Assembly (NCBI RefSeq): GCF_003385215.1
Contig: NZ_PQHW01000069.1
Span: forward strand, 1 to 38,553
Direction: 5' to 3'
DNA from: Amycolatopsis thermalba
GTDB taxonomy: Bacteria > Actinomycetota > Actinomycetes > Mycobacteriales > Pseudonocardiaceae
DNA length: 38,553 nucleotides
The notes beneath the pieces were generated by a model. The model saw only the letters and a list, made by a program, of their open reading frames with translations, made no database searches and was not told the origin of the DNA. The position numbers were made by a program, and so were the translations under genes. Numbering within the stretch: position 1 is the first letter of the stretch; every line of letters starts with the position of its first letter. This document shows, piece by piece, positions 15,430 through 38,490 of the stretch.

Positions 15430-15443
15430 GTGACTCCTCCGGT

Positions 15444-15455
15444 TGAAACGTGTAA
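15444..15455. promoter_or_regulatory. LacI-type operator near the regulator gene
   Basis: TGAAACGTGTAA matches the general LacI-family palindrome TGAAACGTTTCA at 10 of 12 positions. It lies 15 bases upstream of the regulator's start codon and could mediate autoregulation. Confidence 0.5.
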
Positions 15456-15519
15456 CAAGCGTCAATGTTATCGGATCGCGACCGAAAGAACCGCGCTGAA
15501 CTGGGCTGAGAACTTGTCG

Positions 15520-15549
15520 TTGACTTCGTGATCCAGCGCATAGTAGCGT
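15520..15549 (+). promoter_or_regulatory. Candidate promoter of the rhamnose operon
   Basis: TTGACT (15520-15525) is followed by TAGTAG (15541-15546, 15-base spacing) or TAGCGT (15544-15549, 18-base spacing). The pair lies just upstream of a LacI-type operator, so bound repressor would block promoter clearance. Confidence 0.45.
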
Positions 15550-15558
15550 CAGCGCGCC

Positions 15559-15577
15559 AGGTTTGTGAAACCTTTCA
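15559..15577. promoter_or_regulatory. LacI-type operator of the rhamnose operon
   Basis: Two overlapping perfect palindromes are present: AGGTTT-GTG-AAACCT (15559-15573) and TGAAA-CC-TTTCA (15566-15577). The second has the usual LacI-family half-sites TGAAA/TTTCA. The site lies between the candidate promoter and the first gene of the operon (start 15592). Confidence 0.7.
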
Positions 15578-15591
15578 TTTCGGAGGTCGCG

Positions 15592-17109
15592 ATGGTGCGG
15601 CAGGACCCGGGCGTTGTGCCCTTGCTGGAGGTCCGCGGCGTCACGAAGTCGTTCGGCGCGGTGGCCGCCGTGCAGGGGGTGTCGTTCCCCCTCCACTCCG
15701 GCGAGGCCCACGCACTGGTGGGCGAGAACGGCGCGGGCAAGTCGACCATCGTCAAGATGCTCGCCGGGGTCCACCGCCCGGACACCGGAACGCTGCTGGT
15801 CGACGGGCAGCCCGTCGAGTTCTCCTCCCCGGCCGACGCCAAGGCCGCCGGCATCGCGGTGATCTACCAGGAACCCACGCTGTTCCCCGACCTCACGGTC
15901 GAGGAGAACATCGTGATGGGCCGCCACCCGCGCAAGCGGCTGGGCATGATCGACCGCGGCGCCATCCGGGCCGAGGCGGAGAAGCTGTTCGCCCGCCTCG
16001 GCGTGCGGATCGACCCGGGCCGCCCGGCGCGTGGCCTGTCGATCGCCGACCAGCAGATCGTCGAGATCGCCAAGGCCCTCTCGGCCGACGCGCGCGTGCT
16101 GATCATGGACGAGCCGACCGCGGCGCTGTCGCTGGTCGAGGTCGAGCGCCTGTTCTCGGTGGCGCGCAACCTGCGCGACGAGGGCGCGGCGATCATGTTC
16201 ATCTCGCACCGCTTCGAGGAGATCACCGAGCTGTGCCAGCGCGTGACGATCATGCGCGACGGCAAGCACGTCTCCACCGATCCGATGGCCGGCCTGACCG
16301 TGGACGAGATGGTCCGCCGCATGGTCGGCCGTGAGCTGGACGCGTTGTTCCCCAAGCAGGACGTCACCCCGGGCGAGGTCGTGCTCGAAGTGGACGGTCT
16401 CACCCGGGAAGGCGTGTTCCGCGACGTCTCGTTCCAGGTCCGGGCCGGCGAGATCGTCGCATTCGCCGGCCTGGTCGGCAGTGGACGGTCCGAAGTGGTC
16501 CAGGCCGTGTTCGGAGTGGACGACCGCGACGCGGGAACCGTGAAGCTGCGCGGGAAGAAGCTCAAGCCGGGCTCGCCGCGCGCCGCGATGGCCGCGGGCA
16601 TGGCCCTGGTGCCGGAGGACCGGCGCCAGCAGGGCCTGGTCATGGACCTGTCCATCGAGCGGAACGTGACCCTGCCGCGCTCGGGCGCGCTGGCGAAGCT
16701 GGGTTTCCTGTTCGGCGGCAGCGAGCGCAAGGAGGCGCTGCGCTGGACCGGACGCCTCCAGACCAAGTACGGCCGCCTCGGCGACGCCGTGGGCACGTTG
16801 TCCGGCGGCAACCAGCAGAAGGTCGTGCTGGCCAAGTGGCTGTCGATGGCGCCGAGCGTCCTGATCGTCGACGAGCCCACGCGCGGCATCGACGTCGGCA
16901 CGAAGGCCGAGGTGCACCGGCTGATGTCGTCGCTGGCCGCGGAGGGCGTCGCGGTGATCATGGTGTCCTCCGAGCTGCCCGAGGTGCTCGGCATGGCCGA
17001 CCGCGTGCTGGTGATGCGTGAGGGCCGGATCGTCGCGGAGATCGGCCGCGACGACGCGAGTGAGGACTCGGTGATGTTCGCAGCGATGGGTCAGGGAGCG
17101 GCGGCGTGA
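15592..17109 (+). CDS. rhaT: Rhamnose ABC transporter ATP-binding protein
   Basis: This 505-residue protein is a duplicated sugar ABC ATPase of the RbsA/XylG type. The first half has Walker A GENGAGKST, a Q-loop IYQEPTLF and Walker B LIMDEP, but its signature is the family's variant LSIADQQ. The second half has the typical degenerate Walker A (GLVGSGRSE), a full signature LSGGNQQK and Walker B LIVDEP. ATG 15592 follows GGAGG. It energises import by the two permeases encoded next, and its stop overlaps the first permease start by four bases. Assignment to rhamnose comes from the operon. Confidence 0.93.
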   Translation: MVRQDPGVVPLLEVRGVTKSFGAVAAVQGVSFPLHSGEAHALVGENGAGKSTIVKMLAGVHRPDTGTLLVDGQPVEFSSPADAKAAGIAVIYQEPTLFPDLTVEENIVMGRHPRKRLGMIDRGAIRAEAEKLFARLGVRIDPGRPARGLSIADQQIVEIAKALSADARVLIMDEPTAALSLVEVERLFSVARNLRDEGAAIMFISHRFEEITELCQRVTIMRDGKHVSTDPMAGLTVDEMVRRMVGRELDALFPKQDVTPGEVVLEVDGLTREGVFRDVSFQVRAGEIVAFAGLVGSGRSEVVQAVFGVDDRDAGTVKLRGKKLKPGSPRAAMAAGMALVPEDRRQQGLVMDLSIERNVTLPRSGALAKLGFLFGGSERKEALRWTGRLQTKYGRLGDAVGTLSGGNQQKVVLAKWLSMAPSVLIVDEPTRGIDVGTKAEVHRLMSSLAAEGVAVIMVSSELPEVLGMADRVLVMREGRIVAEIGRDDASEDSVMFAAMGQGAAA

Positions 17110-18149
17110 ACGCGACGAAGGTGATGTCTCCCAAGATGAGCGGGCCGGCGCCCACAGCCCGCAGGTTCTCCCTCGGCGGCCTGTTCCGGGCACGCGAAGC
17201 CGGGATCGTCCTCGCGCTGGTCGCGCTGGTCGCGTTCACGGCGACGCAGAACGCGCGCTTCCTGTCCGCGCAGAGCATCCGCGACATCCTGCTCGGCACC
17301 GCGATCCTGGCCGTCCTCGCGGTCGGCCAGGCGACGGTGATGATCACCCGCAACATCGACCTGTCGGTGGGCTCGGTGCTCGGCCTGTCCGCGTTCGCGG
17401 TCGGCTCGCTGCTGCAGGACAACCAGGGCATGCCGGTGATCGCCGCGCTGGTCGCCGGTCTCGCCGTCGGCGCGGCGTGCGGCCTGGTCAACGGGGTGCT
17501 GGTCCGGTTCGGCCAGGTGCCCGCGCTGGTGGTCACCCTCGGCACGCTCTACGCCTTCCGCGGCGCGGCCTACTTCTGGGCCGGTGGCGAGCAGATCAAC
17601 GCCGACGAGCTGCCCGGCCACTTCCTGCGGTTCGGCAACTCCTCGATCCTGGGCATCCCGTGGCTGGTGCTGATCGCGGTGATCGTGCTGGTCGTCGCCG
17701 GGGTCGTGCTGCGCAACTACCGCGCGGGCCGCGAGCTGTACGCGATGGGGTCGAGCCCGCAGGCCGCCGAGCTGGCCGGGATCAAGGTCGGCCGCAACAC
17801 GATCGCCGCGTTCCTGGTGAGCGGCGCGCTCGCGGGGGTGGCCGGGGTGCTGTTCGCCGCCCGGTTCGGCACCATCGACGCCGCCGCGGGCAACGGCTAC
17901 GAGCTGAACGTGGTCGGCGCCGCGGTGGTCGGCGGGGTCGCGGTGTTCGGCGGCAGCGGCACCGTGTGGGGCGCGGGCCTGGGCGCCTTGCTGCTCACCG
18001 TCATCGGCAGCTCACTCGCCGTCCTCGACATCAACCAGTTCTGGCAGCAGGCCATCGTCGGCGCGCTGATCCTGCTCGCGATCGGCGCCGACCGGCTGGT
18101 CGCCGTCCGGGTCGCCAAGTCACTGAAGAAGAGGGATTCCCATGTCTGA
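17106..18149 (+). CDS. rhaP: Rhamnose ABC transporter permease 1
   Basis: This 347-residue membrane protein belongs to the RbsC/AraH branch of sugar ABC permeases (BPD_transp_2). It has about ten hydrophobic segments, the conserved MITRNIDLSVGSVLGLSA near the first third, TLGTLYAFRGAAYF and the coupling region ELYAMGSSPQAAELAGIKV. GTG at 17106 overlaps the ATPase stop (GTGA). It pairs as a heterodimer with the following permease, which it resembles but does not duplicate closely. Confidence 0.93.
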   Translation: MNATKVMSPKMSGPAPTARRFSLGGLFRAREAGIVLALVALVAFTATQNARFLSAQSIRDILLGTAILAVLAVGQATVMITRNIDLSVGSVLGLSAFAVGSLLQDNQGMPVIAALVAGLAVGAACGLVNGVLVRFGQVPALVVTLGTLYAFRGAAYFWAGGEQINADELPGHFLRFGNSSILGIPWLVLIAVIVLVVAGVVLRNYRAGRELYAMGSSPQAAELAGIKVGRNTIAAFLVSGALAGVAGVLFAARFGTIDAAAGNGYELNVVGAAVVGGVAVFGGSGTVWGAGLGALLLTVIGSSLAVLDINQFWQQAIVGALILLAIGADRLVAVRVAKSLKKRDSHV

Positions 18150-19128
18150 CAAGCGGCCGGCCTGGCTGTCCCGCCTGGCGAGCTGGGACGCCGCCGTCAT
18201 CGTGATCACGGTGCTGGTGCTGCTCATCGCCTCCGGGGCGGTGGAGAACTTCGGCAGCAGCCGCAACTTCACCTTCCTGCTGCTGGACCTGCTGCCGATC
18301 GCGCTGATCGCGCTGCCGATGACGCTGGTGATCGTGACCGGCGAGATCGACCTGTCGGTGGCGAGCACGCTCGGCCTCACCTCGGCCGTGATGGGCGACC
18401 TGTGGAACCGCGGGCTGCCGATCGAGACGATCATCCCGCTGTGCCTGGTGCTCGGCGCGGTGCTGGGCGCGCTCAACGGGTTCTTCGTGACCGTGCTGAA
18501 GCTGCCGTCGCTGGCGGTCACCATCGGCACGCTGGCGCTCTACCGCGGCCTGGCGTTCGTGGTGCTCGGCGACGGGGCGGTGGCGGACTTCCCGCGCGCC
18601 TACACCTCGTGGGTGACCGGCACGATCGGCGACGGCCCGGTCCCGAACATGCTGATCCCGCTGGTGGTGCTGGCCGTGGTGTTCGGCCTGGTGCTGCACG
18701 CGACCCCGGTCGGCCGGTCGGTGTTCGCCGCCGGTGCCGGTGAGCAGGCGGCGCGCTTCGCCGGTATCCGCGTGGGACGGCTGAAGTTCTGGCTGTACGT
18801 GGTCAGCGGCCTGGTCGCCGGCCTGGCCGGGGTGCTGTGGACGCTGCGGTACTCCAGTGCCCGCGCCGACAACGGACTGGGCATGGAACTGGCCGTCGTG
18901 GCGGCGGTCCTGCTCGGCGGTGTCTCGATCTTCGGTGGCAAGGGCACCCTGCCGGGGGTGCTCGCCGGGGTGGTCCTGCTGGCCACGCTGCAGAACGCGC
19001 TGCGGCTGCAGGACGTGTCGAACGAGGCGCTCAACATCGTCACCGGGGTGCTGCTGATCATCTCGGTGCTCCTGCCCAACATCGTCATCCGCTTCCGGGC
19101 TGCGCTGCGGCGCCGGGCGACCACATAG
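18142..19128 (+). CDS. rhaQ: Rhamnose ABC transporter permease 2
   Basis: This 328-residue permease is of the same family as the preceding gene, with VIVTGEIDLSVASTLGLTSA, TIGTLALYRGLAFV and VFAAGAGEQAARFAGIRV at the corresponding positions. Its ATG lies eight bases inside the end of the previous gene, indicating translational coupling. The C-terminus ends in a basic cytoplasmic tail (RFRAALRRRATT). Two distinct permeases are typical of rhamnose and autoinducer-2 type importers, whereas ribose-type systems usually have one. Confidence 0.93.
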   Translation: MSDKRPAWLSRLASWDAAVIVITVLVLLIASGAVENFGSSRNFTFLLLDLLPIALIALPMTLVIVTGEIDLSVASTLGLTSAVMGDLWNRGLPIETIIPLCLVLGAVLGALNGFFVTVLKLPSLAVTIGTLALYRGLAFVVLGDGAVADFPRAYTSWVTGTIGDGPVPNMLIPLVVLAVVFGLVLHATPVGRSVFAAGAGEQAARFAGIRVGRLKFWLYVVSGLVAGLAGVLWTLRYSSARADNGLGMELAVVAAVLLGGVSIFGGKGTLPGVLAGVVLLATLQNALRLQDVSNEALNIVTGVLLIISVLLPNIVIRFRAALRRRATT

Positions 19129-19145
19129 AAAGGCGAAAACGCCCC

Positions 19146-20213
19146 ATGAAGAGACGACTCCTCGCCGGTGCGGTGTCGGCAGCCCTCGTGCTGACGGTGG
19201 CCGCGTGCGGTGGCACGACGAAGAACGACAGCAGCTCCGCCGGTGCCGGTGGCGCCCAGCCGACCGCGCAGGCCGACCCGAACGCCCCCACCAAGGAGGG
19301 CGTGAAGATGGCCTTCCTGCCCAAGCAGCTCAACAACCCGTACTCGGACATCGAGGTCGGCGGCGGCAAGACCGCCCTGGACGAGCTGAAGGCCGAGTAC
19401 AAGCTGGTCGGCCCGAACGACGCCAGCGCCTCCTCGCAGGTCAGCTACATCAACACGCTGATCCAGCAGCAGCAGGACGTGATCGGCATCGCCGCGAACG
19501 ACCCGAACGCGGTGTGCCCGTCGCTGAACCAGGCCCGCAGCTCCGGCATCAAGGTCGTGGCGTTCGACTCCGACGCGGCCAAGGACTGCCGCGACGTGTT
19601 CATCAACCAGGCCACCACGCAGGGCATCGGCGAGCAGCTGGCGAAGATGGCGAGCGAGCTGGCCGGCGGCTCGGGTGAGATCGCCATCCTGTCCGCGACC
19701 CCGAACGCCACCAACCAGAACGCCTGGATCGAGGTGTTCAAGCAGCAGCTGGCCAAGCCCGAGTACGCGAACCTGAAGCTGGTGAAGGTCGCCTACGGCA
19801 ACGACGACGACCAGAAGTCGTTCCAGGAGGCCCAGGGCCTGCTGCAGTCGTACCCGAACCTGAAGGCCATCGTCGCGCCGACCACCGTCGGCATCGCCGC
19901 GGCCGCGCGCTACATCAGCTCGTCGGCCTACAAGGGCAAGGTCGCGGTGACCGGCCTGGGCACGCCGAACCAGATGCGCGAGTACGTCAAGGACGGCACG
20001 GTCACGAAGTTCGCGTTGTGGAACCCGGCCGACATCGGCTACCTGGCCGCCTACGCGGGTGTCGCGCTCGCCTCCGGCCAGATCACCGGCGCCCAGGGCC
20101 AGACGTTCAAGGCGGGCAAGCTCGGTGAGTACACCATCGGCGCGGACGGCGAGATCGTCCTCGGCCCGCCGACGGTGTTCGACGCGAGCAACATCGACCA
20201 GTACAACTTCTGA
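19146..20213 (+). CDS. rhaS: Rhamnose-binding lipoprotein of the ABC transporter
   Basis: This 355-residue periplasmic-binding-protein-like (type 1, sugar) lipoprotein has a lipobox LTVAAC (Cys21) followed by a Gly/Ser/Ala linker. The mature domain begins near KMAFLPKQLNNPY and has the typical IQQQQDVIGIAANDPNAV, VVAFDSDA and VAVTGLGTPNQM segments. It binds the sugar outside the cell and delivers it to the two permeases. The ribosome binding site is AAAGG some ten bases before the ATG. A perfect GC-rich hairpin follows the gene. Confidence 0.94.
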   Translation: MKRRLLAGAVSAALVLTVAACGGTTKNDSSSAGAGGAQPTAQADPNAPTKEGVKMAFLPKQLNNPYSDIEVGGGKTALDELKAEYKLVGPNDASASSQVSYINTLIQQQQDVIGIAANDPNAVCPSLNQARSSGIKVVAFDSDAAKDCRDVFINQATTQGIGEQLAKMASELAGGSGEIAILSATPNATNQNAWIEVFKQQLAKPEYANLKLVKVAYGNDDDQKSFQEAQGLLQSYPNLKAIVAPTTVGIAAAARYISSSAYKGKVAVTGLGTPNQMREYVKDGTVTKFALWNPADIGYLAAYAGVALASGQITGAQGQTFKAGKLGEYTIGADGEIVLGPPTVFDASNIDQYNF

Positions 20214-20218
20214 TGCTC

Positions 20219-20250
20219 CCCGGCCGGGCCGCACCGGCGGCCCGGCCGGG
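20219..20250 (+). terminator. Intra-operon hairpin after rhaS
   Basis: A perfect 14-bp GC-only stem (20219-20232 with 20237-20250) with a four-base loop ACCG follows the rhaS stop by five bases. It has no T-run, and the operon continues 20 bases later. It is more likely a partial terminator or 3'-end stabiliser, raising binding protein over enzyme levels, than a full stop. Confidence 0.6.
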
Positions 20251-20269
20251 TCTCCACCAAGGACGAACT

Positions 20270-20596
20270 GTGGCCCGATACTGCTTCTGCCTGCAGGTGA
20301 AACCCGAGCGGATGGCCGAGTACGCGCAGCGGCACCGCGCGGTGTGGCCGGAGATGCGGCAGGCGCTGACCGACACCGGATGGCGCAACTATTCGCTGTT
20401 CCTCCGCGACGACGGCCTGCTGATCGGCTACGTCGAGGCCGACGACCCGGACACCGCGCGGGCGGCGATGGCCCGCACCGAGGTCAACGCCCGCTGGCAG
20501 GCCGAGATGGCCGAGTTCTTCACCGGCCTGGAAGGGCGCGGCCCCGACGAGGGGTTCCAGTTGCTCACCGAGGTCTTCCACCTGGAAGGAAAGTGA
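20270..20596 (+). CDS. rhaM: L-rhamnose mutarotase
   Basis: This 108-residue protein interconverts alpha- and beta-L-rhamnose so that the isomerase receives its preferred anomer. It aligns with E. coli RhaM: RHRAVWPEM (residues 21-29) corresponds to RRHNPIWPEL and keeps the catalytic His at residue 22; NYSLFLRDDGLLIGYVE and NARWQAEM match the later blocks. GTG 20270 is chosen because AAGGA lies six bases upstream; the open frame to 20213 is mostly hairpin sequence. Its stop overlaps the start of rhaI (GTGA). Confidence 0.93.
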   Translation: MARYCFCLQVKPERMAEYAQRHRAVWPEMRQALTDTGWRNYSLFLRDDGLLIGYVEADDPDTARAAMARTEVNARWQAEMAEFFTGLEGRGPDEGFQLLTEVFHLEGK

Positions 20597-21768
20597 TCCC
20601 GTTGTCCGACCTGACCGCCGTGAAAGAAGCCCTGCGGGCTCAGCGGATCGAAACGCCTTCGTGGGCCTATGCCAACTCCGGCACGCGGTTCAAGGTGTTC
20701 CCGCAGCCCGGGGTGCCGCGGACGCCGGAGGAGAAGATCGCCGACGCGGCGAAGGTGCACGAGCTGACCGGCATCGCGCCGAGCGTGGCCCTGCACATCC
20801 CGTGGGACCGGGTCGACGACTACGGCGCTCTCGCCAAGTACGCGCGCGACCTCGGCATCGAGATCGGCGCCATCAACACCAACGTCTTCCAGGACGAGGA
20901 CTACAAGCTCGGCTCGGTCACCAACCCCGACCCGCGCATCCGCCGCAAGGCCACCGATCACCTGCTCGAGGCGATCGACATCATGGACGCCACGGGCAGC
21001 AAGGACCTGAAGTTCTGGTTCTCCGACGGCATCAACTACCCGGGCCAGGACGATCTGCGCACCCGCCAGGACCGGCTGGCCGCTGCCCTGCGCGAGGCGT
21101 ACGACCGGCTCGGCGACGACCAGCGGATCCTGCTGGAGTACAAGCTGTTCGAGCCCGCGTTCTACGCCACCGACGTGCCGGACTGGGGCACCTCGTACGC
21201 GCACTGCGTCGAGCTCGGTCCTAAAGCGACGGTGTGCATCGACACCGGCCACCACGCGCCGGGCACCAACATCGAGTTCATCGTCGCGTTCCTGCTGCGC
21301 CAGGGCAAGCTCGGCGCGTTCGACTTCAACTCGCGCTTCTACGCCGACGACGACCTGATGGCCGGCGCCGCCGACCCGTTCCAGCTCTTCCGCATCATGT
21401 GGGAGATCGTGCGCGCCGACGCGCTGGACCCGTCCTACGGCATCAACTTCATGCTCGACCAGTGCCACAACATCGAGGCGAAGATCCCGGCGATCATCCG
21501 CTCGGTGCTCAACGTGCAGGAGGCCACCGCGAAGGCCCTGCTGGTCGACAAGGCGGCCCTGTTCGCCGCGCAGCAGGCCGGGGACGTGCTCGGCGCCAAC
21601 GCCGTGCTGATGGACGCCTACAACACCGACGTGCGGCCGCTGCTGGCCGAGCTGCGCGAGGAGTCCGGGCTGGACCCGGACCCGATCGCCGCCTACCACC
21701 GCAGCGGTTACCAGGACAAGATCGTCGCCGAACGAGCCGACGGCCGGCAGGCCGGTTGGGGAGCCTGA
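20593..21768 (+). CDS. rhaI: L-rhamnose isomerase
   Basis: This 391-residue enzyme converts L-rhamnose to L-rhamnulose. It is a TIM-barrel isomerase of the type found in Streptomyces and Pseudomonas, distinct from E. coli RhaA. Conserved blocks include HIPWDR, NTNVFQDEDYKLGSVTNPD, WFSDGINYPGQDD, EYKLFEPAFY (metal-binding Glu), CIDTGHHAPGTN (metal-binding Asp/His), FNSRFYADDDL and MLDQCHNIE. GTG 20593 overlaps the mutarotase stop and has GGAAGG upstream; TTG at 20602 is an alternative. It is cytoplasmic. Confidence 0.95.
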   Translation: MIPLSDLTAVKEALRAQRIETPSWAYANSGTRFKVFPQPGVPRTPEEKIADAAKVHELTGIAPSVALHIPWDRVDDYGALAKYARDLGIEIGAINTNVFQDEDYKLGSVTNPDPRIRRKATDHLLEAIDIMDATGSKDLKFWFSDGINYPGQDDLRTRQDRLAAALREAYDRLGDDQRILLEYKLFEPAFYATDVPDWGTSYAHCVELGPKATVCIDTGHHAPGTNIEFIVAFLLRQGKLGAFDFNSRFYADDDLMAGAADPFQLFRIMWEIVRADALDPSYGINFMLDQCHNIEAKIPAIIRSVLNVQEATAKALLVDKAALFAAQQAGDVLGANAVLMDAYNTDVRPLLAELREESGLDPDPIAAYHRSGYQDKIVAERADGRQAGWGA

Positions 21769-21774
21769 ACCACC

Positions 21775-23811
21775 ATGACGAACAATCCCGCCGCCGAACT
21801 CATCCAGCGCAGCAACGCCCTGGGCGCCGACCCGCGCAACACCAACTACGCCGGGGGCAACACCTCGGCCAAGGGCAACGAGACCGACCCGGTCACCGGG
21901 CAGCCGACGGAACTGTTGTGGGTCAAGGGTTCCGGGGGTGACCTGGGCACGCTGACCGAGGCCGGGCTGGCCGTGCTGCGGCTGGACCGCCTGCGCGCCC
22001 TGGTCGACGTGTACCCGGGGGTCGAGCGCGAGGACGAGATGGTCGCCGCGTTCGACTACTGCCTGCACGGCCGCGGCGGCGCCGCGCCGTCGATCGACAC
22101 CGCGATGCACGGCCTGGTCGAGGCCACCCACGTGGACCACCTGCACCCGGACTCGGGCATGCTGCTGGTCGCCGCCGCCGACGGCCCGGCGCTGACCAAG
22201 GAGTGCTTCGGCGACCGCGTGGTGTGGGTCGACTGGCGCCGCCCCGGGTTCCAGCTGGGCCTGGACATCGCCGCGGTCAAGAAGGCCAACCCGCAGGCGA
22301 TCGGCGTGATCCTGGGCGGGCACGGCATCACCGCCTGGGGCGAGACGTCCGAGGAGTGCCAGAAGAACTCCTTGGAGATCATCCGGACCGCGGAGAAGTT
22401 CCTCGCCGAGCGCGGCAGCGCCGAGCCGTTCGGCGCGGTCGTGCCCGGGTTCGAGCCGCTGCCGGAGGCGGAGCGGCATGCCAGGGCCGCCGCACTCGCG
22501 CCGGTGATCCGCGGGCTGGCCTCGACCGACCAGCGCCAGGTCGGGCACTACACCGACAGCGACGTGGTGCTGGAGTTCCTGTCCCGGGAGAAGCTGCAGC
22601 CGCTGGCCGCGCTCGGCACGTCCTGCCCGGACCACTTCCTGCGCACCAAGGTCCGCCCGCTCGTGGTCGACCTGCCCGCGACCGCACCGCTGGAGGATGT
22701 CGTCGCGCGGCTGAAGGAACTGCACGAGGCCTACCGCGCGGATTACCGCGCCTACTACGAGCGGCACGCCACCCCGGACAGCCCGGCGATGCGCGGCGCC
22801 GACCCGGCGATCGTGCTCGTCCCGGGTGTCGGCATGTTCTCCTTCGGCAAGGACAAGCAGACCGCGCGCGTGGCCGGCGAGTTCTACGTCAACGCCATCA
22901 ACGTGATGCGCGGCGCCGAGGCGGTCTCCCGCTACGCGCCGATTCCGGAGAGCGAGAAGTTCCGCATCGAGTACTGGGCGCTGGAGGAGGCCAAGCTCCA
23001 GCGCATGCCCAAGCCGAAGCCCCTCGCGGGCCGCGTCGCGCTGGTGACCGGCGCCGGTTCGGGCATCGGCCGGGCCATCGCCGAGCGGCTGGCCGCCGAG
23101 GGCGCCTGTGTCGCGATCGCCGACCTCAACGCGGACGCGGCCGAGGAGGTCGCCCGCGGCATCGGCAACACCGACAAGGCGGTTTCCGTGGTCGCGAACG
23201 TCGTCGATGCCGAGGCGGTCGCAGCCGCGGTGGACGCGACGGTGCTGGCGTTCGGCGGCATCGACCTGGTCGTCAACAACGCCGGCCTGTCGATCTCCAA
23301 GCCGCTGCTGGAGACCACCGAGAAGGACTGGGACCTGCAGCACGACGTGATGGCGAAGGGCTCGTTCCTGGTCTCGCAGGCCGCGGCGAAGGCGATGATC
23401 GCGCAGGGCCTCGGCGGGGACATCGTCTACATCTCGTCGAAGAACTCGGTGTTCGCCGGCCCGAACAACGTCGCCTACGGCGCGGCCAAGGCCGACCAGG
23501 CGCACCAGGTCCGGCTGCTGGCCGCCGAACTGGGCGAGCACGGCATCCGCGTCAACGGCGTCAACCCCGACGGTGTGGTGCGGGGTTCGGGCATCTTCGC
23601 CGGGGGCTGGGGCGCGCAGCGCGCCGCGGTCTACGGGGTGCCGGAGGAGGACCTGGGCAAGTTCTACGCCCAGCGCACTATCCTCAAGCGCGAGGTGCTG
23701 CCCGAGCACGTCGCCGCGGCGGTGTTCGCGCTCACCGGCGGCGACCTGACGCACACGACCGGCCTGCACGTGCCCGTGGACGCGGGTGTCGCGGCCGCTT
23801 TCCTCCGCTGA
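21775..23811 (+). CDS. rhaEW: Fused rhamnulose-1-phosphate aldolase / lactaldehyde dehydrogenase
   Basis: This 678-residue bifunctional enzyme joins a class II aldolase (about residues 1-430) to an SDR (about 430-678). The aldolase half has NTNYAGGNTSAKG, the zinc site THVDHLHPDSG and GGHGITAWGE. The SDR half has TGAGSGIG, NNAG, a serine in ISSKNS and YGAAK. The first domain splits L-rhamnulose-1-phosphate to dihydroxyacetone phosphate and L-lactaldehyde; the second oxidises lactaldehyde to L-lactate, as shown for related RhaEW proteins. This product fits the lactate-oxidation genes downstream. The ATG follows the rhaI stop by six bases. The family is known in Bacillus, Chloroflexi and actinobacteria. 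Confidence 0.95.
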   Translation: MTNNPAAELIQRSNALGADPRNTNYAGGNTSAKGNETDPVTGQPTELLWVKGSGGDLGTLTEAGLAVLRLDRLRALVDVYPGVEREDEMVAAFDYCLHGRGGAAPSIDTAMHGLVEATHVDHLHPDSGMLLVAAADGPALTKECFGDRVVWVDWRRPGFQLGLDIAAVKKANPQAIGVILGGHGITAWGETSEECQKNSLEIIRTAEKFLAERGSAEPFGAVVPGFEPLPEAERHARAAALAPVIRGLASTDQRQVGHYTDSDVVLEFLSREKLQPLAALGTSCPDHFLRTKVRPLVVDLPATAPLEDVVARLKELHEAYRADYRAYYERHATPDSPAMRGADPAIVLVPGVGMFSFGKDKQTARVAGEFYVNAINVMRGAEAVSRYAPIPESEKFRIEYWALEEAKLQRMPKPKPLAGRVALVTGAGSGIGRAIAERLAAEGACVAIADLNADAAEEVARGIGNTDKAVSVVANVVDAEAVAAAVDATVLAFGGIDLVVNNAGLSISKPLLETTEKDWDLQHDVMAKGSFLVSQAAAKAMIAQGLGGDIVYISSKNSVFAGPNNVAYGAAKADQAHQVRLLAAELGEHGIRVNGVNPDGVVRGSGIFAGGWGAQRAAVYGVPEEDLGKFYAQRTILKREVLPEHVAAAVFALTGGDLTHTTGLHVPVDAGVAAAFLR

Positions 23812-23831
23812 CGCAGGAAGGACACATTCTG

Positions 23832-25253
23832 ATGACCCTCGAGCGGATCACCCCGCGGCGCACGCGCGTCGGCCTCGTCGCCGGCGGGCTGGGCGCGTAC
23901 TGGCCGCAGTTCCCGGAGCTGCTGCCGCAATTGCAGGCCTCCGCACGGCGCGTGGCCGAGCGTCTGTCCGCTTTGGACTGCGAGGTGGTGGACGCCGGGT
24001 TCGTCTCGGACGAGCGGGAGGGCGCGGCCGCGGCGGAGACGGTGCGGGTCGCCGACTGCGACCTGATCATCGGCTTCCTCACCACCTACCTCACCTCGAG
24101 CATGCTCGCGCCGGTCGCGCAGCGCAGCGGCTCGCCGGTGCTGCTGCTCAACCTGCAGCCCACCGAGGCGATGGACCACGCGAACTTCGACACCGGGGCC
24201 TGGCTCGCCTACTGCGGCGCCTGCCCGCTGCCGGAGATGGCCAACGCGTTCCGCCGCGTGGGCGTCGAGTTCCGCTCGGTGTCCGGGTATCTGGAGGACG
24301 AGCGGGCCTGGACCCGCGTCGAGCGCTGGATCAAGGCCGCCGGGGTGCGCGCCGCGTTCCGGCACGGGCGGCACGGCCTGCTCGGCCACCTCTACCCGGG
24401 CATGATGGACGTCGCCACCGACCCGACCCTGGTGACCGCGCAGTTCGGCGGGCACGTGGAGATCCTGGAGATCGACGACCTGCGGGTGCGGGTCGAGAAG
24501 GTCACCGACGACGAGACCAAGGCGCGGATGGACCTCGCGAAGGAGATCTTCGAGCTGGACGACTCGGTCGTCGAGGAGGACTTCGCGTGGGGCGCCCGCG
24601 TCTCGGTGGCGCTGGACCGGCTGGTCGAGGACTTCTCCCTGGACACGCTGGCCTACTACCACCGCGGCCTGGACGGGGAGACCCACGAGCGGGTCGGCGC
24701 CGGGTTCATCCTCGGCGCGTCGCTGCTGACCGCCCGCGGCATCCCGGCGGCCGGGGAGTTCGAGCTGCGCAACTCGCTGGCGATGCTGGTGATGGACCGG
24801 CTCGGCGCGGGCGGTTCGTTCACCGAGCTGCAGGCGCTGAACTTCCGGGACAACGTGGTCGAAATGGGCCACGACGGCCCCGCGCACCTGGCGATCAGCG
24901 CGCGACGGCCGCTGCTGCGCGGGCTCGGCGTCTACCACGGCAAGCGCGGCTGGGGCGTGTCCGTCGAGTTCGACGTCAAGCACGGTCCGGTCACCCTGCT
25001 CGGCCTCGGCCAGGAACGGGACGGGCGGTTCACGCTCGTCGCGTCCGAGGGCGAGGTGGTGCCCGGGCCGCTGCTGGAGATCGGCAACACCACCTCCCGG
25101 GTGGACTTCGGCGGCAACCCGGGGGAGTGGACCGACGCGTGGTCGGCCGCCGGGGTGAACCACCACTGGGCGCTGGGCACCGGGCACCGCGTGCCGGAAC
25201 TCGAAGCCGTGGCCGACCTGCTCGGCCTCGAACTGCGCGTGGTGCGGGTGTGA
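23832..25253 (+). CDS. L-fucose/L-arabinose isomerase family protein
   Basis: This 473-residue protein belongs to the fucose/arabinose isomerase superfamily. The N-terminal nucleotide-like half has VADCDLIIGFLTTYLTSSM and LLNLQP; the C-terminal half has FELRNSLAMLVMDRL, NFRDNVVEMGHDGPAH and AGVNHHWALGTGH, which carry the Glu, Asp and His residues expected to hold the metal. It sits between the aldolase and kinase genes of a rhamnose operon that already has a rhamnose isomerase. It could widen the substrate range to L-fucose, L-arabinose or another sugar released with rhamnose. No matching kinase or aldolase specific for those sugars is nearby. ATG 23832 follows GGAAGG. Confidence 0.85.
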   Translation: MTLERITPRRTRVGLVAGGLGAYWPQFPELLPQLQASARRVAERLSALDCEVVDAGFVSDEREGAAAAETVRVADCDLIIGFLTTYLTSSMLAPVAQRSGSPVLLLNLQPTEAMDHANFDTGAWLAYCGACPLPEMANAFRRVGVEFRSVSGYLEDERAWTRVERWIKAAGVRAAFRHGRHGLLGHLYPGMMDVATDPTLVTAQFGGHVEILEIDDLRVRVEKVTDDETKARMDLAKEIFELDDSVVEEDFAWGARVSVALDRLVEDFSLDTLAYYHRGLDGETHERVGAGFILGASLLTARGIPAAGEFELRNSLAMLVMDRLGAGGSFTELQALNFRDNVVEMGHDGPAHLAISARRPLLRGLGVYHGKRGWGVSVEFDVKHGPVTLLGLGQERDGRFTLVASEGEVVPGPLLEIGNTTSRVDFGGNPGEWTDAWSAAGVNHHWALGTGHRVPELEAVADLLGLELRVVRV

Positions 25254-26722
25254 TGCGCCTGGCGGCCGCCGACCTGGGCGCCTCCAGCGGGCGTGTCATG
25301 GCCGGGACGGTGGGGCCGGGCGTGCTCGCGGTCGAGGAGGTGCACCGGTTCCCCAACGGGGGCGTCCGGGTCGCCCGAGCGGGTGGATCGACCCTGCACT
25401 GGGACATCCTCGCCCTGTACCGGGAGCTGCTGACCGGCGTGCGGGCCGCGCACAAGGCCGGTGCGCTGGACGGTCTCGGCATAGACTCCTGGGCCGTGGA
25501 CTACGGGTTGCTCGACGCCTCCGGGGCGCTGCTGGGCAATCCGGTCAACTACCGCGACGCCCGCACCGAAGGCGTGGCCGAGCGGGTGCTGGAGACGGTT
25601 CCGGCGCGCGAGCTGTTCGACGTCACCGGCCTGCAGCAGCTGCCGTTCAACACGCTCTACCAGCTGCTGGCCGAGCGCGACCTGAGCGCCGCCGAGACCC
25701 TGCTGCTCATCCCGGACCTGCTGAACTACTGGCTGACCGGGGTGCGTGGCGCCGAACGCACCAACGCCTCCACCACGCAGCTCTACGACGTGCGGTCGCG
25801 GGAGTGGGCGGTGGGCCTGGCGGAGCGGCTGGGCATCCCGGCCCGGTTGCTGCCGCCGCTGCGCGACCCGGGCACGGTGGTCGGCACGCTGCTGCCGGAC
25901 CTGGCCGCCGAGCTGGCGCTGCCGGAACTGCCGGTGGTCGCCGTCGGATCGCACGACACCGCGTCCGCGGTGGTGGGCGTGCCGGCCGAGCCGGGCACGA
26001 ACTTCGCCTACATCTCGTCGGGCACCTGGTCGCTGGTCGGGCTGGAGCTCGGCGAACCGGAGCTGGGCGACGCGGCGCTGGCGGCCAACTTCACCAACGA
26101 GGGCGGCGTCGACGGCACGATCCGGTTCCTGCGCAACGTGATGGGCCTGTGGGTGCTGTCCGAGTCGCTGCGGACCTGGGACGCGCAGGGCACGCCGGTG
26201 TCGCTGCCGTCGGTGCTGGCGCAGGCCGCGGAGGTGCCCGCGCTGTCGGCGGTCGTGGACATCGACGCGCCGGTCTTCCTGCCGCCGGGGGACATGCCCG
26301 CACGCATCCGGCAGGCGTGCGCCGAAACCGGTCAGCGGGTCCCGGAGACGCCCGGCGAGATCGTGCGGTGCGTGCTGGACAGCCTCGCGCTGGCCTATCG
26401 TCGGACCGTGCGCCAGGCATCGGAGCTGACCGGCAGGCCGGTCGACGTCGTGCACGTGGTCGGCGGCGGGGTGCGCAACGAGCTGCTGTGCCAGCTCACC
26501 GCGGACGCCTGCGGCGTGCCGGTGCTGGCCGGGCCGGTCGAGGCCGCCGCGCTGGGCAACGTGCTCGTGCAGGCCCGGGCGCTGGGCGCGGACCTGCCGG
26601 ACCTCGCCGCGATGCGGGCGCTGATCCGGGACACGCACGAGCTGCGCCGCTACGAACCGTCCGGCCGCGAGGCCGACTGGGCGCGGGCGGCCGCGCGGAT
26701 CGATCCGAGGGTGGTGGCATGA
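25253..26722 (+). CDS. rhaB: L-rhamnulokinase
   Basis: This 489-residue FGGY-family kinase phosphorylates L-rhamnulose at O1. The N-terminal ATPase motif AADLGASSGRV, the segment IDSWAVDYGLLD with the catalytic Asp, VNYRDARTEG, TGLQQLPFNTLYQL and GSHDTASAVVG are all typical of rhamnulokinases, and the C-terminal HVVGGGVRNELLCQL closes the nucleotide site. The ATG overlaps the upstream stop by one base and its end overlaps lutA by four, within the continuous operon. It is cytoplasmic. Confidence 0.94.
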   Translation: MRLAAADLGASSGRVMAGTVGPGVLAVEEVHRFPNGGVRVARAGGSTLHWDILALYRELLTGVRAAHKAGALDGLGIDSWAVDYGLLDASGALLGNPVNYRDARTEGVAERVLETVPARELFDVTGLQQLPFNTLYQLLAERDLSAAETLLLIPDLLNYWLTGVRGAERTNASTTQLYDVRSREWAVGLAERLGIPARLLPPLRDPGTVVGTLLPDLAAELALPELPVVAVGSHDTASAVVGVPAEPGTNFAYISSGTWSLVGLELGEPELGDAALAANFTNEGGVDGTIRFLRNVMGLWVLSESLRTWDAQGTPVSLPSVLAQAAEVPALSAVVDIDAPVFLPPGDMPARIRQACAETGQRVPETPGEIVRCVLDSLALAYRRTVRQASELTGRPVDVVHVVGGGVRNELLCQLTADACGVPVLAGPVEAAALGNVLVQARALGADLPDLAAMRALIRDTHELRRYEPSGREADWARAAARIDPRVVA

Positions 26723-27456
26723 AGGTCGCCGTGCAGGTCACCTGCATCAACGACGCGATGTTCCCGGACACCGGCAAGGCGGTGTTCACGCTGCTGCGGC
26801 GGCTCGGCGTGGCGGCGGAGTTCCCGGCCGCGCAGACCTGCTGTGCGCAGCCCATGGTCAACACCGGCTACCTCGACGAGGCCGTGCCGGTGGTGCGCAA
26901 CTTCGTCGACGCGTTCGCCGGGTACGACGCGATCGTGACCCCGTCCGGGTCGTGCGCGGGCTCGGTGCGGCACCAGCACTCGATCGTGGCGCGCCGCAGC
27001 GGGGACGAGCGGTTGCAGGAGGTGGTCGCGGAGACCTCGCCGAAGGTGTACGAGCTGACCGAGTTCCTGGTCGACGTGCTCGGCGTGACCGACGTGGGCG
27101 CGTACTTCCCGCACCGCGTCACCTACCACCCGACCTGCCACTCGCTGCGGATGCTGGGCGTCGGCGACCGGCCGCTGCGGTTGCTGCGCGAGGTGCGCGG
27201 GCTCGACCTGGTGGAGCTGCCCGCCGCGAACGAATGCTGCGGCTTCGGCGGCACGTTCGCGGTGAAGAACGCCGAGACCTCGACCGCGATGGGCGCGGAC
27301 AAGGCGCGGCACGTGCTGGACACCGGCGCCGAGGTGCTGGTGGCCGGGGACAACTCGTGCCTGCTGCACATCGGCGGGCTGCTGTCGCGGCAGCGCACCG
27401 GCGTGCGGGTGATGCACCTGGCCGAGGTGCTGGCGGGAACGGAGGATCGCTCGTGA
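26719..27456 (+). CDS. lutA: Lactate oxidation iron-sulfur protein LutA-like
   Basis: This 245-residue protein has two cysteine-rich CCG-type domains of the heterodisulfide-reductase/GlpC family. The motifs are QTCCAQP in the first and ECCGFGG in the second, with preceding single cysteines in SGSCAG and HPTCHS; these bind Fe-S clusters. With LutB and LutC it forms the L-lactate dehydrogenase complex known from Bacillus, which oxidises L-lactate to pyruvate at the membrane. ATGA overlap with rhaB indicates translation coupled to rhamnose enzymes. Confidence 0.92.
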   Translation: MKVAVQVTCINDAMFPDTGKAVFTLLRRLGVAAEFPAAQTCCAQPMVNTGYLDEAVPVVRNFVDAFAGYDAIVTPSGSCAGSVRHQHSIVARRSGDERLQEVVAETSPKVYELTEFLVDVLGVTDVGAYFPHRVTYHPTCHSLRMLGVGDRPLRLLREVRGLDLVELPAANECCGFGGTFAVKNAETSTAMGADKARHVLDTGAEVLVAGDNSCLLHIGGLLSRQRTGVRVMHLAEVLAGTEDRS

Positions 27457-28913
27457 GCGCCACTTTCGTGGGAATGCCCGCCTTTCCGAAGGCGGCGCGG
27501 GAGGCGTTGTCGGACACGCAGTTGCGCCGCAACCTCGCGCACGCCACCGGCACGATCCGCGCCAAGCGCGCGGCGGTCGTCGGCGAGGTCGGCGAGTGGG
27601 AGGAGCTGCGGCTGGCCGGCGCGGCGATCAAGGACAACACGCTGCGCCACCTCGACGAGCACCTGCTGACGCTGGAGAAGGCGCTGACCGGCCGCGGCGC
27701 CACCGTGCACTGGGCGCGGGACGCGGCCGAGGCGTGCGAGATCGTCGCGTCCATCGCGCGGCAGCACGCCGTCGACGAGGTCGTCAAGGTCAAGTCGATG
27801 GCGACGCAGGAGATCGGTCTCAACGAAGCGCTCGCCGCGCAGGGGATCACCGCGTGGGAGACCGACCTGGCCGAGCTGATCGTGCAGCTCGGCGACGACC
27901 TGCCCTCGCACATCCTGGTGCCCGCGATCCACCGCAACCGCGCGGAAATCCGGGAAATCTTCCGGGACAAGATGGCCGCCGCCGGGCGCCCGGCACCCGA
28001 CGACCTGTCGGACCGGCCGGCGGAGCTGGCGGGTGCGGCGCGGCTGCACCTGCGGGAGAAGTTCCTGCGGGCGCGCATGGCCGTGTCGGGTGCCAACTTC
28101 GCGGTCGCCGAGACCGGGACGCTGGTCGTGGTCGAGTCCGAGGGCAACGGCCGGATGTGCCTGACGCTGCCCGAGGTGCTGGTGTCGGTGGTCGGGATCG
28201 AGAAGATCGTGCCGACCTGGTCCGATCTCGATGTGTTCCTGCAGCTGCTGCCGCGGTCGAGCACGGGGGAGCGGATGAACCCCTACACCTCGACCTGGTC
28301 GGGCGCGACCGAGGGCCAGGAGATGCACGTGGTGCTGCTGGACAACGGCCGCACCCGCGCGCTGGCCGACGAGGTGGGGCGGCAGGCGCTGCGTTGCATC
28401 CGGTGCTCGGCCTGCCTGAACGTGTGCCCGGTCTACGAGCGCACCGGCGGACACGCCTACGGCTCGGTGTACCCGGGTCCGATCGGGGCGATCCTGAACC
28501 CGCTGCTGCGCGGTACCGGTGTGGACGAGCAGGTCGACTCGCTGCCGTACGCCTCCAGCCTGTGCGGCGCGTGCTTCGAGGCGTGCCCGGTGCGGATCGA
28601 CATCCCCGAGGTGCTGGTGCACCTGCGGTCCACAGTGGTCGACGCGCACCGGTCGTCGCCGAAGGCCGAGGCGGTGGCGATGAAGTCGGCGTCCTGGGTG
28701 CTCGCCGACGCGCGGCGCCTGGGCTGGGCCGAGCGTGGTCTCGGCGTCGCGGGCCGGGCGCTGAACCGGTTGGGGCGCAAGGTGATGCCCGGCGGGCGGC
28801 GCGCCCTGGGACGGCTGCCGTGGCCGGGTTCGCTGTGGAGCAACGCGCGGGACGTGCCGGCGCCGCCGGTGGAGTCGTTCCGGTCGTGGTGGCGGCGGGA
28901 GGGACGGCGATGA
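27453..28913 (+). CDS. lutB: Lactate oxidation iron-sulfur protein LutB-like
   Basis: This 486-residue protein has an N-terminal LUD (lactate utilisation, DUF162-type) domain up to about residue 300 and then two ferredoxin-type cluster motifs: C315-x2-C318-x2-C321-x3-C325 (CIRCSACLNVC) and C371-x2-C374-x3-C378 (CGACFEAC). A basic C-terminal tail follows. It is the electron-carrying core of the LutABC lactate oxidase. GTG 27453 overlaps the lutA stop and its end overlaps lutC by four bases. Confidence 0.94.
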   Translation: MSATFVGMPAFPKAAREALSDTQLRRNLAHATGTIRAKRAAVVGEVGEWEELRLAGAAIKDNTLRHLDEHLLTLEKALTGRGATVHWARDAAEACEIVASIARQHAVDEVVKVKSMATQEIGLNEALAAQGITAWETDLAELIVQLGDDLPSHILVPAIHRNRAEIREIFRDKMAAAGRPAPDDLSDRPAELAGAARLHLREKFLRARMAVSGANFAVAETGTLVVVESEGNGRMCLTLPEVLVSVVGIEKIVPTWSDLDVFLQLLPRSSTGERMNPYTSTWSGATEGQEMHVVLLDNGRTRALADEVGRQALRCIRCSACLNVCPVYERTGGHAYGSVYPGPIGAILNPLLRGTGVDEQVDSLPYASSLCGACFEACPVRIDIPEVLVHLRSTVVDAHRSSPKAEAVAMKSASWVLADARRLGWAERGLGVAGRALNRLGRKVMPGGRRALGRLPWPGSLWSNARDVPAPPVESFRSWWRREGRR

Positions 28914-29506
28914 GCGCGCGCGAGGAAATCCTGGGCCGGGTGCGGTCCGCGCTGGCTTCGGCGGACCCGTCGGAGGCTCCGGTGCCCCGCGGCTACCGGT
29001 CGGCGGTGCCGTCAGGTGATGTGGTGGAACTGTTCGCCGAGCGGCTGGTGGACTACCGCGCCGAGCTGACGCGGTGCACTGTGGACACTCTGCCCGCGGC
29101 GCTGTCGTCGGCGCTGGGTGACGCGGAAGCGGTGCTGGTGCCGGACGGTTTCCCGTGGGAGGTGCCCGGTGCGGTGCCGGACACCGGGCAGTCCGCGGCG
29201 GAGCTGGACCGGCTGGACGCGGTGGTGACCCTGGCGGCGCTGGCGATCGCGACCACCGGCACGATCGTGCTGGACCACGGGCCGGGACAGGGGCGCCGCG
29301 CGGTGAGCCTGGTGCCCGACCGGCACGTGTGCGTGCTGCGGACCGACCAGATCGTGCCCGGCGTGCCCCAGGCTGTGGCCGCGTTGTCCCCGGACCGGCC
29401 GCAAACCTGGATCAGCGGCCCCAGCGCGACGAGCGACATCGAGCTGAACCGGGTCGAGGGCGTGCACGGGCCGCGGACGCTGCACGTGTTGCTGGTGTCG
29501 CCGTGA
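28910..29506 (+). CDS. lutC: Lactate oxidation protein LutC-like
   Basis: This 198-residue LUD-domain protein is the third subunit of LutABC. The core runs from LDAVVTLAALAIATTGTIVL through GRRAVSLVPDRHVCVLRTDQIV to ISGPSATSDIELNRVEGVHGPRTLHVLL, a highly conserved ending of LutC. It has no Fe-S cysteines. ATGA overlap with lutB and GTGA overlap with the next small gene keep it in the operon. It completes conversion of rhamnose-derived lactate to pyruvate. Confidence 0.94.
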   Translation: MSAREEILGRVRSALASADPSEAPVPRGYRSAVPSGDVVELFAERLVDYRAELTRCTVDTLPAALSSALGDAEAVLVPDGFPWEVPGAVPDTGQSAAELDRLDAVVTLAALAIATTGTIVLDHGPGQGRRAVSLVPDRHVCVLRTDQIVPGVPQAVAALSPDRPQTWISGPSATSDIELNRVEGVHGPRTLHVLLVSP

Positions 29507-29715
29507 CGACCGCGCAGCGCCCCGCCACGCTGCCCCAGGCGGATCTGGAGTTGCTGGAACTGCTCGCCGACGGCCTCCCGCTGGACGCCATCGCGCGCCG
29601 CCTGGACCTGTCGGAACGCACCGTCCGCCGACGGCTGCGTGCCCTCTGCGACCGGCTGGGCTTCGTGGCGCCGATCCAGGCGGTGGTGTGGGCCGCCCGG
29701 CGGGGCCTGCTGTGA
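29503..29715 (+). CDS. 70-aa LuxR-type helix-turn-helix protein
   Basis: This very small protein consists almost only of a GerE/LuxR-type DNA-binding domain: LELLELLADGLPLDAIARRLDLSERTVRRRLRALCDRLGF matches the four-helix layout, and the C-terminus IQAVVWAARRGLL matches the usual dimerisation helix. It lacks any receiver or ligand domain. Codon use is typical of the neighbourhood and the GTG overlaps the lutC stop by four bases, so it is translated with the rhamnose-lactate operon. It may feed back on the operon or on a distant target. Confidence 0.82.
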   Translation: MTTAQRPATLPQADLELLELLADGLPLDAIARRLDLSERTVRRRLRALCDRLGFVAPIQAVVWAARRGLL

Positions 29716-29736
29716 GTTCCCCGCCGGGCGGGCCCG

Positions 29737-30018
29737 CTAGCTGACCATCCGGAGTTCGAGCAGCCAGCCGGGGCTGTCGAAGCTGCACCGGTAGTCGACG
29801 ACGGCGCCGACGCCGATCATGTCCCGGCCCTGCTGCCGGCACTTTTCGTAGGTGGCGTAGACCTTCCACGGAACCCACACGTCCTGGGTCGTCACCGTCC
29901 CGGTGTCCGTGGGTGCGGGACTCGCGCCCGCCAGCGCCGTGGTCGCCGTCCAGCCGGTGAACGTCAGCGCGGCCGCCAGCGCCGACACCGTGGCCAGCCG
30001 TGTCAAGCTTCGTTGCAT
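29737..30018 (-). CDS. Small secreted protein
   Basis: This 93-residue protein has a signal peptide (MQRSLTR, then a hydrophobic core ending near ALAG) and a mature part of about 60 residues with two cysteines (in EKCRQQG and YRCSFD) that could form one disulfide. The ATG at 30018 is preceded by GGGAGG. It is convergent with the rhamnose operon, whose last gene ends 21 bases away. The family is not recognised. It may share an exported role with the oxidase next to it. Confidence 0.72.
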   Translation of the reverse strand: MQRSLTRLATVSALAAALTFTGWTATTALAGASPAPTDTGTVTTQDVWVPWKVYATYEKCRQQGRDMIGVGAVVDYRCSFDSPGWLLELRMVS

Positions 30019-30141
30019 GATGAGCCTCCCAGTGGTGAAGGATTCATCGTCGCCCACCGGCTTGGCATGCCCCTGACGCGAACCGGAGCGCGCACGCAGG
30101 ACGAACCCGTCCCCGCTACTGTTCCGCTACGGGGCGGCGGA

Positions 30142-31589
30142 TCAGTGCGGGTGGCCGGGAATGGCCCGGTTGACCTGGTTTTCGGTGCCGGGCTCGACGA
30201 TGACGAACTGGCCCATCATCCCGGAGTCCTCGTGCCGCAGGATGTGGCAGTGGTACATGTACGGCGACGTGGGATCGGTGAACTTCCCGAACTGGACCGC
30301 GAGCCGGACGACGCTCTTGCCGGGCACGTAGACGGTGTCCTTGTACCCGGTGGCGTAGGACGGCGGCGGGGCGCCGTCGGTGTCGAGGATCTGGAACGCG
30401 ACCTCGTGGATGTGGAAGTTGTGCGAGTAGACGTTGTTCTCGATCTCCCAGATCTCGACGGCACCGGCCGGCACGACCTCGTCGATCCGGGTCAGGTCCA
30501 TCTCCTTGCCGTTGATGGCGTCGTGGCCGTTGAGCGTGAACCGCCGCACGGTGGCGCCGGGCGGGGGAGTGACGGGGGCAGCTCGGTGAGCCGCGCGGGC
30601 AGTTCGGGTGACGGCGTGAGCCGTCCGGCGGCGACGATCTTCAGCACGTCGAAGTCGCCCGCGCCGATGTCGACACCGTTGTCGGTGTTGCGCAGCACGA
30701 CCTGCTCGCCCGGCGCGAACGCGACGACGATCTCCGCGCGCTCACCGGGGGTGAGGGAGAACTGCTCGACCTCGACGGGAGCGCCGAGCAGCCCGCCGTC
30801 GGTGGCGACGACGTGGAAGCGGCGCCGGTCGCCGAAGCCGAGGGTGTACATGCGGGCGTTGGAGCCGTTGAGCACGCGGAACCGGACCCGCTCGGTGGTC
30901 ACCTGCAGCACGGGACCGTAGGTGCCGTTCACCAGGACGTGGTCCCCCAGGATCCCGAACGTGCCGTCGAGCGGGTCACCGTCGAAGGAGCCGTCTTCGG
31001 CGAAGTTCTTGTCCTGCAGGATCAGCGGGATGTCGTCCACCCCGTAGTCCGAGGGCAGCCCGGGATCGGTCTCGTCGTCGACGATGAACATGCCGGCCAG
31101 CCCGCGGTAGACGTGCCGCGCGGTGGCGCCGTGCGGGTGCGGGTGGTACCAGGACGTGGCCGCGGGCTGGTCGATGGTCCACCGCGGGGACCAGAGCGCG
31201 CCCGGCTCGATGGGCTGGTGCGGCCCGCCGTCCATGGCGGCGGGCAGGCGCATGCCGTGCCAGTGCACCGTGCTGGTCTCGGGAAGCTCGTTGCGGACCG
31301 CCATCTGGACGACGTCGCCGCGCGCGGCGCGCAGGGTCGGTCCGAGGAACGTGCCGTTGAAGCCCCAGGTCGGCGTCTGTTTGCCGGGCAGGATCTGCGT
31401 CGTGCCGGTCCGCATCGCGAGGTCGAACCGGCGCACGCCACCGGCGTCCGGCTCCGGCCGCAGCAGCGGCGGTATCCGCAGCGGGGTGCCGAAGTCCGAG
31501 GGGGTGGCCGGGGCCGGGCCCGGGTCCGACCGCAGGCCACCGTCAGCCCGGACAGCACCGACAATCCCAGGAAAAGCACGTCTTCTCAC
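30142..31589 (-). pseudogene. Tat-exported multicopper oxidase, reading frame disrupted
   Basis: Taken together two frames encode a full multicopper oxidase of about 480 residues. The upstream frame (31589 to 30492) has HWHGM and WYHPHPHG copper motifs, and the downstream frame (within 30549 to 30142) has HNFHIHEV and the type 1 site YHCHILRHEDSGMMG. Homology moves from one frame to the other near 30570-30580, beside a run of five G, so one base appears missing. At the N-terminus a second frame encodes LFLGLSVLSGLTVAC; dropping one C at 31570/31571 and restoring one base near 31531 would rebuild a Tat lipoprotein signal (RRRAFLGLS...LTVAC). The gene is either decaying or carries sequencing errors. 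An intact enzyme would oxidise phenolics or cuprous copper outside the cell. Confidence 0.8.
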
Positions 31590-31661
31590 GCCCGAAACCT
31601 ACGGCCTGGGCGGAAGATCCCCCGCGTGAGGGGCCGCGGTGGCCGAAATCGGACACCGATC

Positions 31662-31690
31662 TTGTTCCGAACGTGAAGTCCACGTAACGT
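31662..31690 (+). promoter_or_regulatory. Candidate promoter of the GH78 gene
   Basis: TTGTTC (31662-31667) and TAACGT (31685-31690) are separated by exactly 17 bases. Transcription would start near 31697, immediately before a LacI-type palindrome. Confidence 0.5.
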
Positions 31691-31702
31691 TCCCTCAGGT
31701 TT

Positions 31703-31714
31703 TGAAACGATTCA
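31703..31714. promoter_or_regulatory. LacI-type operator upstream of the GH78 gene
   Basis: TGAAACGATTCA matches TGAAACGTTTCA at 11 of 12 positions and has perfect TGAA/TTCA arms. It lies 12 bases downstream of a good -10 and 50 bases before the GH78 start, matching the layout at the rhamnose operon. Confidence 0.68.
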
Positions 31715-31763
31715 CCGTCGAATCAGCGGCCGTTTCCCCACCGGCCGAGGAGGAGCAGCATCG

Positions 31764-38478: not shown

Positions 38479-38490
38479 TCGCGCTCAGCC

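Follow-up and report, generated by a model that had tools for sequence, protein, structure and literature searches.

Candidate LacI-type operators shared by the rhamnose operon and a neighbouring GH78–GH106 rhamnosidase pair in Amycolatopsis thermalba

The 38,553-nt window analysed here is one whole contig (NZ_PQHW01000069.1, C189 in our numbering) of the 7.24 Mb draft genome of Amycolatopsis thermalba, and it carries an operon for L-rhamnose uptake and catabolism that runs on into lactate oxidation genes (rha-lut operon), a divergent gene for a LacI-family regulator, which we call RhaR1 (14377–15429, minus strand), and genes for two alpha-L-rhamnosidases of families GH78 and GH106. Sequence comparisons strongly support operators common to the rha operon and the secreted GH78–GH106 pair, and it is likely that RhaR1 controls its own gene, the rha-lut operon and the GH78–GH106 operon through them. 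In the mechanism we propose, the RhaR1 repressor would bind operators of the TGAAA-NN-TTTCA type ahead of all three and would be released once rhamnose or an early intermediate accumulates. The secreted enzymes that free rhamnose would then be induced jointly with rhamnose import and its breakdown towards pyruvate.

Three sites named in a preliminary description of this DNA were confirmed at the positions given there. The first, TGAAACGTGTAA (15444–15455), lies just upstream of the RhaR1 start and is a candidate autoregulatory operator with one strong half; the second, TGAAACCTTTCA (15566–15577), is a candidate rha operon operator just upstream of a Shine-Dalgarno-like GGAGG of the first transporter gene; and the third, TGAAACGATTCA (31703–31714), is a candidate GH78–GH106 operator 49 nt ahead of the GH78 ATG. 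Within the window, TGAAACGWTTCA at up to two mismatches gave 8 strand-matches in 4 places, the fourth being 3035, against 0.99 expected, and 8 or more were reached in 0/100 shuffles. A scan of the 7.24 Mb draft genome for the motif, which the preliminary description had proposed, returned 31703 as the only exact place. Allowing up to one mismatch raises this to six places: two in this window, two at another LacI/GH78 locus (C66) and one each on contigs C90 and C212; these last two, with MarR/MFS-like and NDH-2/DNA-glycosylase-like neighbouring frames as read by eye (MFS, major facilitator superfamily), had no visible rhamnose link and were set aside. Up to two mismatches there are 64 forward and 65 reverse matches, compared with 17 on each strand for the reversed pattern. 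Because the motif is common at two mismatches, a weak site carries little weight by itself, and for 15444, which has two, the case is made by where it lies and by its conservation.

Conservation of the operators at the rha operon was followed in the best 80 of at least 443 RhaR1 relatives from a genome scan (68–83% identity), using upstream stretches of 450 bp (one of 233 bp) counted from about residue 17 and a site threshold of at least 10/12. Seventy-six of the 80 have such a site upstream, compared with 0.9% of base-shuffled stretches and 15/1600 random stretches of the same loci. The best upstream site is TGAAAGGTTTCA in 41/80 loci and TGAAATGTTTCA in 14/80, and nine of these wider loci have a perfect TGAAACGTTTCA ahead of a rhaEW gene that stands apart. 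Among 19 same-genus genomes (the genus set), 14 have RhaR1, and in all 14 loci the 15566 site is identical, reading TGAAAGGTTTCA on the regulator strand; the 15444 counterpart reaches at least 10/12 in 12 of these loci and 9/12 in the other two. The non-CG centre of the rha operon operator (CC/GG here, TG in many Actinoplanes-type loci) keeps one orientation, and the centre of the GH78 site is CG.

The GH78 operator is conserved with its gene. This GH78 was found in five of the 19 genus genomes, our own included, with relatives at 93–94% and 75% identity, and the exact TGAAACGATTCA stands about 50 bp ahead of it in all five. In the comparison with the 75% identical orthologue of G124 the operator matches at 12/12, while its flanks agree at only 32/60 and 35/50 positions. 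Across the genus the exact sequence occurs at 14 places in 12 genomes, and the reversed pattern at none. Ten of the 14 places lie just ahead of rhamnosidase genes or of MFS genes linked to a second regulator, RhaR2 (discussed below): five GH78 orthologues, two GH78b-like genes, two RhaR2-linked MFS promoters and one remnant in G127, counted here with its genes gone. An eleventh, in G129, lies some 0.35–0.6 kb ahead of another GH78. The remaining three, in G126 and G130 (both next to an adenosine-deaminase-like frame, by eye) and on G121:C101, showed no rhamnose link and were not retained. Four relatives that lack GH78–GH106 at this spot were also checked. No site of at least 10/12 was found in that stretch in G113, G092 or G133; in G127 the promoter stretch and operator are kept, with a dehydrogenase-like gene some 200 bp on, which suggests gene loss. 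G006, where RhaR1 has no match at 1e-60, holds a GH78 of 45% identity, and this gene too has no site.

RhaR1 itself gives full-length NCBIfam LacI-family matches, with E-values down to 1.9e-64 and all under equivalog cut-offs, and aligns throughout with two paralogues in which Pfam recognises LacI and Peripla_BP domains. The candidate operators ahead of its putative target genes are palindromic, as in the LacI family.

Several observations weigh against control of all three promoters by RhaR1. The 15444 operator has one weak half, and the centre of the 15566 site is CC/GG, not the CG that is usual for LacI-family operators. Four of the 80 upstream stretches (L043, L083, L085 and L086) hold no site, although L083 carries TGAAACCTTTCA ahead of an MFS gene. 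The preliminary description had placed each site near a plausible promoter, which a consensus scan did not bear out: it returned nothing in 31500–31800 and, in 15380–15640, a single minus-strand promoter (15569 to 15540), so that a plus-strand consensus is absent from both intervals; in a high-GC genome such a scan is weak evidence either way. This GH78 has 25 matches in the genus, and for 19 of them the stretch fetched contains no site reaching 10/12; some of these 19 may be later operon genes or may start outside that stretch. A site is present for the other six, which are the five orthologues plus a gene on C11 of G124. G124 has both RhaR1 and RhaR2, yet its full-length relative on G124:C12, at 49% identity, has none. 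Finally, RhaR2 is also present in each of the five genomes that hold this GH78.

With 19 of 25 matches lacking a site, not every GH78 belongs to the regulon, and TGAAACGATTCA marks this GH78 orthologue, not GH78 genes generally. These site-less genes, together with the three exact genus matches that show no rhamnose link, are what could be said for chance similarity, with no rhamnose LacI regulator controlling GH78 at all. We consider this highly improbable, given an exact site ahead of four out of four relatives' orthologues, its survival between diverged flanks in G124 and the empty count for the reversed pattern in 19 genomes.

A more serious alternative, a possibility that falls short of likely, is that the GH78–GH106 operator is read mainly by RhaR2, or by RhaR1 and RhaR2 together, and that the enzymes answer a second signal such as a rhamnoside. 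RhaR2 is encoded in the same genome (C147:53127–54125), is 60% identical to RhaR1 and lies divergent from an MFS sugar transporter gene, with a GH78 gene further along; in several large frames that lie between these two genes Pfam recognised nothing. The two regulators fall into separate clades (support 0.999 and 0.988). Their recognition helices, VSIGTVSNVVN in RhaR2 and VSLGTVSNVLN in RhaR1, differ by two conservative changes and are invariant in 15/15 RhaR2 and 14/14 RhaR1 genus sequences. Sites of at least 10/12 stand in the upstream stretches of all 15 genus RhaR2 genes, six of them perfect TGAAACGTTTCA; a 51% identical LacI protein outside both clades, G131b, whose stretch has a 10/12 site, was excluded from these counts. 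Two genomes, G120 and G121, have the exact GH78-type operator ahead of their RhaR2-linked MFS gene. G121 has no RhaR1 match at 1e-60; on one contig stretch its RhaR2 gene is found together with the end of a rhaEW gene, a frame that by eye resembles rhamnulokinase, and the MFS gene, and the exact operator lies between the rhamnulokinase-like frame and the MFS gene. RhaR2 is therefore itself likely to be a rhamnose regulator.

Against a leading role for RhaR2 at 31703, the rha-lut operon that GH78 follows adjoins the RhaR1 gene, and RhaR2 is on another contig. The GH78 gene on C147 (L156) has no site in its fetched stretch, although the RhaR2–MFS promoter upstream of it has one. RhaR1 and RhaR2 co-occur in each of the five genomes where this GH78 was found, so distribution does not discriminate between the two paralogues. 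The preliminary description had one regulator, the 14377–15429 protein, controlling both the rhamnosidases and the uptake operon: conservation bears out the shared operators, and sole control by that protein is called into question by RhaR2, the paralogue that this genome also encodes and that shares the operator code. We infer that RhaR1 rather than RhaR2 acts at 31703, or that both do. More tentatively, RhaR1, with the importer and catabolic operon, and RhaR2, with the MFS/rhamnosidase locus, might share one operator code, GH78–GH106 integrating free rhamnose and imported rhamnoside through a single 12-bp site.

It is improbable that the 31703 site is controlled by a third LacI protein (G000:C66, L122), which is 40% identical to RhaR1. 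Its gene is grouped with one MFS gene and two of GH78 type, and the nearby sites TAAAACGATTTA, TAAAACGATTCA and TGAAACGATTTA resemble 31703. Its recognition helix, however, differs (VSPASVSNFFH), sites near its G124 counterpart include TAAAACGATTTA, and operator and GH78 occur together in G064, G125 and G132, which gave no C66-type match at 1e-60, a limited test given that the C66 protein's own score is 1.3e-64. The C66 region is a separate rhamnosidase locus with its own TAAAACGATTTA-like sites.

The preliminary description called the loci distant, 16 kb apart. That term is misleading: the start of GH78, at 31.76 kb, comes soon after the end of the rha-lut operon at about 29.7 kb. In the window, a small secreted-looking protein gene and then a multicopper oxidase gene (minus strand) lie between the small helix-turn-helix (HTH) gene that ends the operon and GH78. 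In four relatives (G125, G064, G124 and G132) GH78–GH106 adjoins the rha-lut operon end without the oxidase. Probes for lutC, the HTH gene, the secreted gene and the oxidase found neither of the latter two between the lut-HTH end and GH78 in G125, G064 and G124, and the small secreted gene alone in G132. In G064 about 0.56 kb separate the HTH gene from the operator, with open frames of up to 186 codons, and an unnamed small gene is possible there. As the oxidase and secreted gene are mostly absent in relatives, the 16 kb gap is mostly rha-lut operon plus strain-level additions. The oxidase (30142–31589) consists of two overlapping pieces in different frames (30492–31589 and 30142–30549), as from a frameshift or sequencing error.

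The observed arrangement is real, and the proposed rhamnose circuit, on gene content and a shared operator, fits a regulon already predicted for Actinomycetales. Passages of Rodionova et al. (2013; PMC3870299) predict that a LacI-type RhaR co-regulates L-rhamnose uptake and catabolism in this order, place the putative rhamnosidases ramA and rhmA within RhaR regulons of several Actinomycetales, and include lactate dehydrogenase genes in certain genomes. As in that account, genes for rhamnose uptake and catabolism, RhaEW among them, accompany a LacI regulator, and an operator is shared with rhamnosidase genes; here this covers the present GH78 orthologue and a small number of other genes, but not most GH78 genes of the genus. 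Unlike what those passages describe, the GH78–GH106 pair lies beside the rha-lut operon and a second paralogue has the same operator code. The same source predicts a LacI regulator, RhmR, for the rhamnosidase (RhmA) locus of Chloroflexus aurantiacus, a further likeness; there, unlike here, the prediction assigns the rhamnosidase to RhmR and the rha operon to a separate, DeoR-type RhaR. Judged by title and opening of the abstract, none of the literature matches listed was an experimental study of a LacI-type RhaR from an actinobacterium. A Streptomyces GH78 is secreted on xylose, and the passages reporting this name no rhamnose regulator for it (PMC12772271). The two-paralogue arrangement is a modestly new aspect. 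The analysis ties the conserved GH78–GH106 operon to a rhamnose regulon which the passages of PMC3870299 predict, but do not test, for Actinomycetales; a directly testable 12-bp candidate site is named, and with RhaR1 and RhaR2 one can ask, in a naturally occurring pair, how repressors retain or divide a common operator code after duplication.

Profile searches upheld the gene labels of the preliminary description (LacI regulator, rhamnose-type ABC importer, RhaI, RhaEW, RhaB, GH78 and GH106). All genes of the operon are on the plus strand. A sugar ATP-binding cassette (ABC) transporter ATP-binding protein (15592–17109; family matches under equivalog cut-offs) is followed by two sugar ABC permeases found by family search (17106–18149 and 18142–19128) and a RhaS-type rhamnose-binding protein (19311–20213; TIGR02637, 395 bits, over cut-off). 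Next come a rhamnose mutarotase-like protein (20213–20596; TIGR02625, 63.5 bits, under cut-off), L-rhamnose isomerase RhaI (20614–21768; TIGR02635, 626 bits, over cut-off) and the RhaEW bifunctional aldolase/dehydrogenase (21775–23811; TIGR02632, 1049 bits, over cut-off); for the binding protein and RhaI the coordinates run from the matched stretch to the stop, the starts not being fixed. An isomerase-like protein (23832–25253, start read by eye) has weak arabinose/sulfoquinovose isomerase matches and is kept inside the rha operon of relatives in addition to RhaI. Rhamnulokinase RhaB (25253–26722, start approximate) has FGGY domains and a TIGR02627 match of 468 bits, under cut-off. LutA-LutB-LutC-like lactate oxidation genes (26794–29506, first start approximate) with CCG and LUD/Fer4 domains come next, and the operon ends with a protein of about 70 residues (29503–29715) that has an HTH only and is present in 6/8 relatives' loci tested.

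Downstream, also on the plus strand, the GH78 alpha-L-rhamnosidase (31764–35042) has Pfam GH78 domains and, by eye, a signal-peptide-like N-terminus, and is probably secreted. The GH106-type alpha-L-rhamnosidase (35055–38372; Pfam PF17132) begins 12 bp further on, in the same gene order in four relatives, and the two are probably on the same transcript. Among loci with a name, those nearest in the genome scan belong to Amycolatopsis, with a regulator identity of 83%, though the scan may omit the genome's own record or very similar ones. A second GH106 follows the pair in G064, G125 and G132, and the window end (38377–38553) resembles the GH106 end. The start of contig C18 of this genome, also GH106, aligns at the position of the relatives' second GH106 with 92–94% identity, so the GH78–GH106 operon probably continues on C18.

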